The position numbers were made by a program, and so were the translations under genes. 33,606 nt of DNA from Candidatus Nanopelagicales bacterium (GTDB taxonomy: Bacteria; Actinomycetota; Actinomycetes; S36-B12). This document shows, piece after piece, positions 20,601-22,225 of the stretch. The stretch covers positions 1 to 33,606 of the forward strand of contig JAURFD010000016.1 of NCBI GenBank assembly GCA_030827125.1, given 5' to 3'. The notes below the pieces were generated by a model. It had not been told where the DNA came from. It did no database searches and worked only from the letters and a program-made list of their open reading frames with translations. Position 1 is the stretch's first letter. Each line of letters starts with the position of its first letter.

Positions 20601-21680
20601 ATGGTCAGTTACGCCGACTCCGGGGTCGACGTCGAGGCCGGTGAACGCGCGGTCGCGCTGATGCGCGAAGCCATCACGCGAGCGACCCGACCCGAGGTGG
20701 TCGGTGGCTTCGGCGGCTTCGCCGGGCTCTTCGATGCGTCCGCCCTCAAGGGCTATCGACGGCCGCTGCTCGCGACATCGACAGATGGCGTCGGCACCAA
20801 AGTCGCTGTCGCGCAGGCGATGGACATCCACGACACGATCGGGCAGGACCTGGTCGCGATGGTCGTCGACGACCTCGTCGTGTGCGGTGCCGAGCCACTC
20901 TTCATGACCGACTACATCGCCACCGGCAAGGTTGTGCCCGAGCGCATTGCGGCGATCGTCTCCGGCATTGCCCGGGGGTGTGAGATCGCCGGCTGCGCGC
21001 TCGTGGGTGGTGAGACCGCTGAGCATCCCGGCCTTTTAGCCTCGAACGAGTACGACGTCGCCGGTGCGGGCACCGGGGTGGTCGAGGCTGACCGACTGCT
21101 CGGTGCTGAGCGGGTGCGTTCCGGTGATGTGGCGATTGCCATGCCGTCGTCGGGCCTTCACTCCAATGGCTATTCCCTCGCTCGCCGCGTCCTGCTCGGT
21201 GAGGGGGGCCCCGGCTTGGGGACCTACGTGGTTGACCTAGGGCGCAGTGTGGGTGAGGAAATGCTCGAGCCCACGCGCATCTACGCCCAGGACTGCCTCG
21301 ACCTCATCGACAACGTCGACGTCCACGCCTTCAGCCACATCACCGGTGGCGGCATCGCGGCCAATCTGGCGCGGGTCCTGCCCGCTCATCTGGCGATTGA
21401 GATCGATCGCGGCACTTGGACGCCCGGCCCGGTGTTCGACCTCATCGCGGCCGGTGGCGTGCAACGTGCGGAGATGGAACGCACTTTCAACATGGGCATG
21501 GGCATGGTGGCGATCGTCAACTCCGGCGACGCGGGCAACGCCCTGGCCCGCCTCCGCGATCGTGGCCTCGACGCCTGGGTGTGCGGCGTCGTTCGCGACC
21601 GCGCCAACGGAGAAGTCGGTGACGCGGAGGCCAAGGGCGGCGGCGGGGGTGCTGCCCTCGTGGTCGGGGAGCATCCCTAG
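20601..21680 (+). CDS. purM: Phosphoribosylformylglycinamidine cyclo-ligase PurM (AIR synthetase)
   Basis: PurM closes the imidazole ring of FGAM to give AIR using ATP, step five of purine synthesis. The 359-residue protein opens SYADSGVDVEAGERAV, then shows GGFGGFAGLFD, TDGVGTKV, ALVGGETAEHPG, PSSGLHSNGYSL and HITGGGIAANL, all PurM signatures. The frame is open a little further upstream inside purF, but ATG 20601, immediately after the purF stop, gives the standard N-terminus. It is co-transcribed and probably translationally coupled with purF. Confidence 0.95.
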   Translation: MVSYADSGVDVEAGERAVALMREAITRATRPEVVGGFGGFAGLFDASALKGYRRPLLATSTDGVGTKVAVAQAMDIHDTIGQDLVAMVVDDLVVCGAEPLFMTDYIATGKVVPERIAAIVSGIARGCEIAGCALVGGETAEHPGLLASNEYDVAGAGTGVVEADRLLGAERVRSGDVAIAMPSSGLHSNGYSLARRVLLGEGGPGLGTYVVDLGRSVGEEMLEPTRIYAQDCLDLIDNVDVHAFSHITGGGIAANLARVLPAHLAIEIDRGTWTPGPVFDLIAAGGVQRAEMERTFNMGMGMVAIVNSGDAGNALARLRDRGLDAWVCGVVRDRANGEVGDAEAKGGGGGAALVVGEHP

Positions 21681-21701
21681 CGGTATCACTTTTGACACCT
21701 T

Positions 21702-21911
21702 ATGCAGGTGGCGATGACCCTGCGGCTCAGCGATGAGCAGTCCGACGCACTACGTGCGCGCGCTGATCACGAGGGTCGATCGATGCAGGAGGTGGCAAAG
21801 CCCGCCATCGAGGAATATCTCGAGACCCATGCCAGGTCGGACCTCATTGAGCGCATCCTCGATGAGGAACTTCCCCGGTACGCCGAGGCCATGCAGCGCC
21901 TTGCCGAGTGA
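21702..21911 (+). CDS. Ribbon-helix-helix antitoxin (partner of a Doc-type toxin)
   Basis: This 69-residue protein has the pattern MTLRLSDEQSDALRARADHEGRSMQEVAKPAIEEYL, a short N-terminal beta strand followed by two helices, typical of RHH antitoxins. The C-terminal tail (RSDLIERILDEELPRYAEAMQRLAE) would wrap a toxin. Antitoxins of this form commonly precede Doc/Fic-type toxins in actinobacteria. The stop overlaps the GTG of the next frame (GTGA), which is a severely truncated Doc. The gene itself looks intact. A start at the second Met (21714) is possible. TTGACA at 21692-21697 may be a -35, but no good -10 follows. Confidence 0.75.
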   Translation: MQVAMTLRLSDEQSDALRARADHEGRSMQEVAKPAIEEYLETHARSDLIERILDEELPRYAEAMQRLAE

Positions 21912-22003
21912 CCTTGCTCTTCCTCACGGCGCAAGAGATTCTGCGAATCGCTGAACGGGTTATTGAGCAACCACAGTGTCGTGACCTGGGGCTGATTGAT
22001 TAG
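21908..22003 (+). pseudogene. Remnant of a Doc (death-on-curing, Fic-fold) toxin, first 31 codons only
   Basis: The frame starts GTG inside the antitoxin stop and reads TLLFLTAQEILRIAERVI, then CRDLGLID and TAG. The pattern (F)LTxEEVLxIxERV followed by RDLGLLESA is the known N-terminus of Doc proteins. Intact Doc is about 125 residues and needs the catalytic HPFxxGNKR motif; this is absent, and DUF3073 coding sequence follows after 12 bp. The toxin is therefore lost and the antitoxin is an orphan. Not a functional protein. Confidence 0.8.
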
Positions 22004-22015
22004 GACCCCGTGGGA

Positions 22016-22225
22016 CTACTGGTCCTCGTCGTCCTCGTCGTCGTAGTACTTGGCGTAGGGGTCCTCGACGGGCTCGTCGATCTCGATTTCCTCGGCACCG
22101 TCCACGTGGTGCTGCTCCCCGGCGGACAACTCCGCCTGCAAGCGCTGGAGATCGGTGTCCGGGCCCCCGTACTTCAGGGCACGGGCGACCTTCGTCTGCT
22201 TCGCCTTCGCGCGGCCGCGACCCAT
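22016..22225 (-). CDS. DUF3073 family protein
   Basis: This 69-residue protein begins MGRGRAKAKQTKVARALKY, the invariant start of DUF3073, a small actinobacterial family of unknown function. A very acidic tail follows (EIEIDEPVEDPYAKYYDDEDDEDQ). The basic head and acidic tail suggest a nucleic-acid-associated or chaperone-like protein, but no role is established. It commonly lies next to purM in actinobacteria, as here (tail to tail). GAGGGAG precedes the ATG. Confidence 0.92.
   Translation of the reverse strand: MGRGRAKAKQTKVARALKYGGPDTDLQRLQAELSAGEQHHVDGAEEIEIDEPVEDPYAKYYDDEDDEDQ

Follow-up and report, generated by a model that had tools for sequence, protein, structure and literature searches.

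Why does an RHH-type antitoxin gene stand between purM and a DUF3073 gene when the Doc frame overlapping it ends after 31 codons, and does such an antitoxin still do anything? The locus lies in the window, the whole stretch of 33,606 nucleotides analysed here, which is contig C7 of an 82-contig draft (genome G000). On the plus strand, purM (AIR synthase, 20601..21680, with PF02769/PF00586 matches) ends in TAG at 21678-21680 and is followed by a putative operator, GGTATCA-CTTT-TGACACC (21682..21699, plus strand), and by the antitoxin frame, open over its full length (21702-21911, plus strand, 69 aa counted from ATG). The antitoxin TGA (21909-21911) overlaps GTG 21908 by 4 nt, and from this GTG a frame of 31 codons runs to a TAG at 22001-22003. 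As the preliminary description had proposed, this frame is the start of Doc: it is recovered as G000:C7:21908-22003 in a search with a Doc query (91% identity, E 3.0e-12), and the match includes the TAG. The same description correctly placed DUF3073 directly next; the gene is convergent (22016..22225, minus strand; PF11273, 78.3 bits, cut-off 25), and its end at 22016 leaves 12 bases between the two stops. An overlap of the same length (-4) joins antitoxin and Doc in 26/34 homologous loci with a Doc frame (122-142 aa) detected by script. The window, with the overlap kept and the toxin truncated, does not hold a complete type II toxin-antitoxin module.

Taken alone, the 31 aa give no hit to Pfam or NCBIfam models at E<=1, those of the Doc family (TIGR01550 and PF02661) included. 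The catalytic motif is absent from the frame, so that the earlier claim of a missing catalytic part stands, but its form had been misjudged, as this Doc group usually carries NH(A/P)L(V/I)DGNKR rather than HPFxxGNKR. When the window's own genome is searched with the Doc query, the fragment at 21908-22003 is the only match. The genome's only Fic-family match, L031 (G000:C44:65329-65616; a 296-codon frame, 26.9 bits), was not returned by the Doc search.

The missing part is displayed by a sister contig, L039 (G034:C150, 3,233 bp), which is identical in sequence to JAURME010000022.1 (L073) of 'Candidatus Nanopelagicales bacterium isolate SFB_Oligo_Co_20'. L039 holds, in order, the purM end, an antitoxin remnant, a Doc with the catalytic motif, a convergent gene for a 777-aa FN3 protein, and the TAGGACCCC...DUF3073 flank; the 777-aa frame reads as FN3 domains with a signal-peptide-like start. 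Its first 141 bases are identical to window 21464-21604, and its right flank aligns to window 22001-22171 with 0 mismatches and one 15-nt gap. Between these flanks, L039 has 2,635 bp that are missing from the window, comprising the rest of doc and the FN3 protein gene, and the deletion junction falls at 22000..22001 (no strand). The absence of the 2,635 bp is established by comparison with L039, itself one short metagenomic contig, and from this comparison we infer a single deletion event. The Doc of L039 is complete from about codon 5 on, its native first codons missing; it forms a 151-aa frame (L039:239-694) that opens at the old antitoxin ATG, passes TIGR01550 (43.8 vs 38.65 bits) and PF02661 (42.8 vs 24 bits), and finds two death-on-curing entries among solved structures (E 0.002 and 0.0097). 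Comparing the purM-DUF3073 gap between relatives, as had been suggested, thus reveals a doc at this site that includes the catalytic part. L039, in turn, is without one base near the antitoxin start and without a 124-base segment that spans, in the window, the antitoxin end and the opening 14 bases of doc. The DUF3073 gene of the window (22016-22225) lacks a 15-base unit present in L039.

L039 diverges from the window by ~5-8% over its middle and is identical to it in the flanks, which indicates that recombination or mosaicism is involved and that L039 is not the direct parent of the window allele. The codon differences between the two are few (synonymous/non-synonymous 4/0 in doc, 2/3 in the antitoxin, and 7/2 in purM), and at the three antitoxin protein differences the window has the commonest homologue residue, the L039 residue occurring in 0, 6, and 2 of 39 homologues. 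Genome G034 carries another purM (62% identity) on contig C92; thus C150/L039 is probably mis-binned and derives from a population close to that of the window. The length of the shared start, 141 nt, is also the k given in the contig name of L039 (k141), and the identity over these 141 bases looks like the mark of an assembly-graph branch. With a draft assembly, and with another version of the locus that has near-identical flanks, the true genome might have a full doc from which the contig skipped 2.6 kb through strain mixture. This is improbable, since several positions in the antitoxin and the doc remnant set the window apart from L039 as a distinct allele, and since searches with the Doc query and with the leading 503 aa of the FN3 protein reveal nothing on the remaining contigs of the genome. 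A relocation of the doc remainder or of the FN3 gene within the genome was likewise considered and rejected, neither the Doc query nor the first 503/777 FN3 aa finding a match.

The remnant (21908..22003, plus strand) consists of ~30 N-terminal doc codons, and its TAG comes from the distal flank; the 31-codon frame is thus a deletion scar and no peptide gene. Its reading as a real small peptide gene, whose product might, e.g., bind the antitoxin and tune its repression, was rejected as exceedingly unlikely: the GTGA overlap would permit translational coupling and 4/4 codon differences from L039 are synonymous, but the stop is created by the deletion junction, and a full Doc under selection would leave the same synonymous bias, the rest of Doc being encoded in L039. 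Moreover, a similar short frame in relatives, named in the preliminary description as the sign of a genuine peptide, is absent: among the 49 Doc matches listed (E<=0.001; 85 family genomes), only that of the window is confined to the first ~32 residues.

The insertion itself looks derived. Eleven same-genus genomes were examined and both purM and DUF3073 were found in 7; in 5/7, the two genes share 4 nt (G002, G003) or are 9 (G006), 64 (G005), or 69 (G010) nt apart, and this tight spacing suggests that the insert of the window, where the gap measures 335 bases, is an addition. In G007 (L106, G007:C79), 1,942 bases separate the two genes and hold another secreted-protein-like frame, and in G034 the gap beside its own purM (L102, G034:C92) is occupied by a 277-codon lipoprotein-like frame. 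These unrelated frames point to a place where cargo comes and goes, and the convergent purM-DUF3073 gap has the look of a site of repeated insertion.

What the deletion left behind is an antitoxin gene that most likely starts at GTG 21708 (21708..21911, plus strand, 67 aa) rather than at ATG 21702, given that VAMTLRL in the window corresponds to MAMTLRL in homologues, which were themselves selected by a start pattern. The protein shares 53-61% identity with its best full-length homologues; its RHH matches stay under the Pfam cut-offs (26.1 vs 27 bits; 19.3 vs 20.5 bits), and the homologue L004 passes PF01402 (34 vs 20.5 bits). Structure prediction from 4 sequences (pLDDT 81.1, pTM 0.45) yields helices at 9-22 and 26-66, with the monomer devoid of strands. 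The top PDB matches of this model are mostly RHH proteins (PutA, TacA, MazE6, VapB, Arc, CopG), none at E<=0.001, and a comparison with solved structures gives weak CopG-family matches (E 0.013 and 0.032). The antitoxin retains the C-terminal LPRYAEA, which it shares with homologues that have the longer type of C-terminus. The antitoxin had been called intact, which holds for its full-length open frame but may overstate its health: residue 32, in predicted helix 2, is a proline in the window and in 0/39 homologues, and the upstream region contains no -10-like TANNNT. Residue 62 is M in the window and leucine in 39/39 homologues. The proline and the missing TANNNT together raise the prospect that the antitoxin itself may be decaying.

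The upstream region retains two half-sites, one perfect (GGTATCA) at -26 and one with a single mismatch (TGACACC) at -15 relative to GTG 21708, which are the usual positions in homologues (near -26 and -15); a repeat of the operator type looked for with RHH antitoxins is therefore present in the window. The set used for this comparison comprises 40 distinct antitoxins recognised by their start pattern, window included, and 38/39 pattern-selected homologues have at least two GGTATCA/TGATACC half-sites upstream (<=1 mismatch). Shuffled upstream regions reach at least two half-sites in 13/2000 cases; these mononucleotide shuffles preserved nothing but base composition and spanned 60 bases, and the real scan also took in 6 gene bases. 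Seven of 30 loci from the antitoxin homology search (L014, L016, L022, L026, L028, L029, and L030) fall outside the set: L016 is the sister contig, L028 and L029 are similar in the N-terminus only and have a different downstream partner, and the starts of L014, L022, and L026 were missed by the pattern. The last three were later added to the counts, L022 with two half-sites and L014 and L026 with one each, which brings the paired half-sites to 39/42 homologues. The TANNNT element occurs at -22..-4 in 34/43 loci (34/40 before the three were added), and the nine loci without it are the window, L002, L004, L011, L014, L022, L025, L026, and L027. With half-sites kept and TANNNT missing, autorepression is plausible and expression probably comes via purM read-through. 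The proposal that the orphan acts as a repressor thus gains computational support from two half-sites at the usual positions, while its expression and DNA binding remain putative.

Damage to the toxin is not restricted to the window. Doc homologues occur in 41/85 family genomes among the matches listed, window fragment included, and Doc is truncated, frameshifted, or altered beside an open antitoxin frame in 11/42 assessable antitoxin loci (the window, L004, L011, L014, L022, L024, L025, L026, L027, L054, and L070). The count was reached in steps. A script gave 10/40 non-intact Docs (Fisher p 0.002), including L010 and L023; L010, with no room downstream, was dropped, and L023 (SHPLVDGNKR) was intact by reading, leaving 8/39 (the window, L004, L011, L024, L025, L027, L054, and L070), to which the added loci contributed L014 with GNER, L026 with GNER and a shifted frame, and L022 with a shifted frame. 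In L027 (K to R) and L024 (N to D), the changes are single and mild and need not inactivate the toxin. TANNNT is missing in 8/11 loci with a broken or altered Doc vs 1/31 others, in a comparison made after looking and among related loci; besides the window, this applies to 7/10 such loci, and, conversely, 8/9 loci without TANNNT have a broken or altered Doc, L002 being the exception. These sequences suggest that damage to the toxin beside an antitoxin that survives is a repeated event in the RHH-Doc group and goes with promoter loss. When the best 30 of the 49 Doc matches are taken as the starting point instead, 27/30 have an antitoxin according to the script, and the antitoxins of L064 and L066 lie in L014 and L017, so that 29/30 best Docs keep their antitoxin, the exception being L039. 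The motif is altered in 3/30 (L054, L057, and L064) vs antitoxin lost in 1/30, and, as this difference is small and the Doc-seeded set favours intact Docs, the order in which the toxin goes first is only a suggestion.

The history that we regard as highly probable would begin with the entry of a chromosomal RHH antitoxin-Doc module and a convergent FN3-protein gene into the purM-DUF3073 gap in the common ancestor of the window and L039. In the window lineage, one ~2.6 kb deletion would have removed all but ~30 doc codons and the whole FN3 gene, leaving the 31-codon frame as a scar that would be without function. The orphan antitoxin would most likely still fold and dimerise, would bind the GGTATCA/TGACACC site weakly, would be transcribed by purM read-through, and would do nothing essential; its protein and upstream features read as those of a repressor-like protein whose control is weakened and which is idle or in slow decay. 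Protection, by an occasional neutralisation of incoming cognate Doc, would be possible. Whether the antitoxin is already non-functional and being lost is close to an even question, leaning slightly towards no: P32 in predicted helix 2, the mutated half-site, the missing TANNNT, and the association of that loss with damaged toxins (a comparison made after looking) speak for a pure relic, and against it stand the full-length open frame and the commonest homologue residue that the window has at all three sites differing from L039.

Conversely, selection might keep the antitoxin as an anti-addiction gene against a Doc of the same family carried by mobile DNA or by a recombined doc-bearing allele. 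The kept LPRYAEA stretch, the spread of Doc homologues over the family genomes, and the existence of a doc-bearing allele with near-identical flanks agree with this reading, as does the anti-addiction role proposed for orphan antitoxins in the available parts of PMC7354431 and PMC7192599. It is nevertheless unlikely, as the proline is unique against 39 homologues, the invariant leucine 62 is replaced, TANNNT is missing, and the orphan is known from a single allele. Moreover, plasmid records yielded no relative and neither did viral contigs in a scan reaching close relatives only, so that nothing here shows incoming toxins of this kind. A further reading starts from the opposite decay of the two alleles, antitoxin-only in the window and toxin-only in L039, by which this chromosomal site of a Nanopelagicales species complex could act as a toxin/immunity polymorphism within one population; this is very improbable and, if true, possession of the antitoxin-only allele would make a strain immune to the toxin-bearing one.

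The literature searches, judged by the titles and abstract openings listed, gave no paper on this locus. The actinobacterial type II RHH antitoxin-Doc modules (TIGR01550 / PF02661; L003, L005, and L006) resemble it in antitoxin sequence, gene order, 4-nt overlap, half-site positions, and Doc N-terminus, whereas the window Doc ends after 31 codons without the catalytic motif. Phage P1 phd-doc likewise pairs an antitoxin gene with a Doc-family toxin and is autoregulated (putatively so in the window), but its antitoxin is placed under Phd/YefM in the available part of PMC4803016, that of the window is RHH-like, and no Doc activity is expected from the window remnant. Orphan antitoxins of Klebsiella pneumoniae, 2,253 occurrences according to the part of PMC7192599 at hand, are toxin-less as well and often stand in the context of a former pair, and those of one common group go with a Fic-domain toxin; unlike the orphans described in that part, the one in the window has a sister allele that shows the removed segment. 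Explanations proposed for orphan antitoxins include degraded pairs and anti-addiction (PMC7192599; PMC7354431, as far as the same portions go). Since toxin-antitoxin leftovers are common, the locus is a well-documented but ordinary relic; with the removed part displayed between near-identical flanks, it also illustrates clearly how such an orphan originates.

Lastly, the GGTATCA/TGATACC pair is a testable candidate operator for an actinobacterial RHH-Doc group. A role of the antitoxin as a regulator of other loci was considered and rejected, as the genome contains 0 exact GGTATCA-N2-8-TGATACC and TGATACC-N2-8-GGTATCA pairs. In the genome, an 18-base operator pattern matches exactly at the window site only, which says little because the pattern was written from the window. 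With <=2 mismatches, the pattern gives 14 forward and 13 reverse matches vs 6 and 0 for the backward control, and some places are common to the forward and reverse lists.
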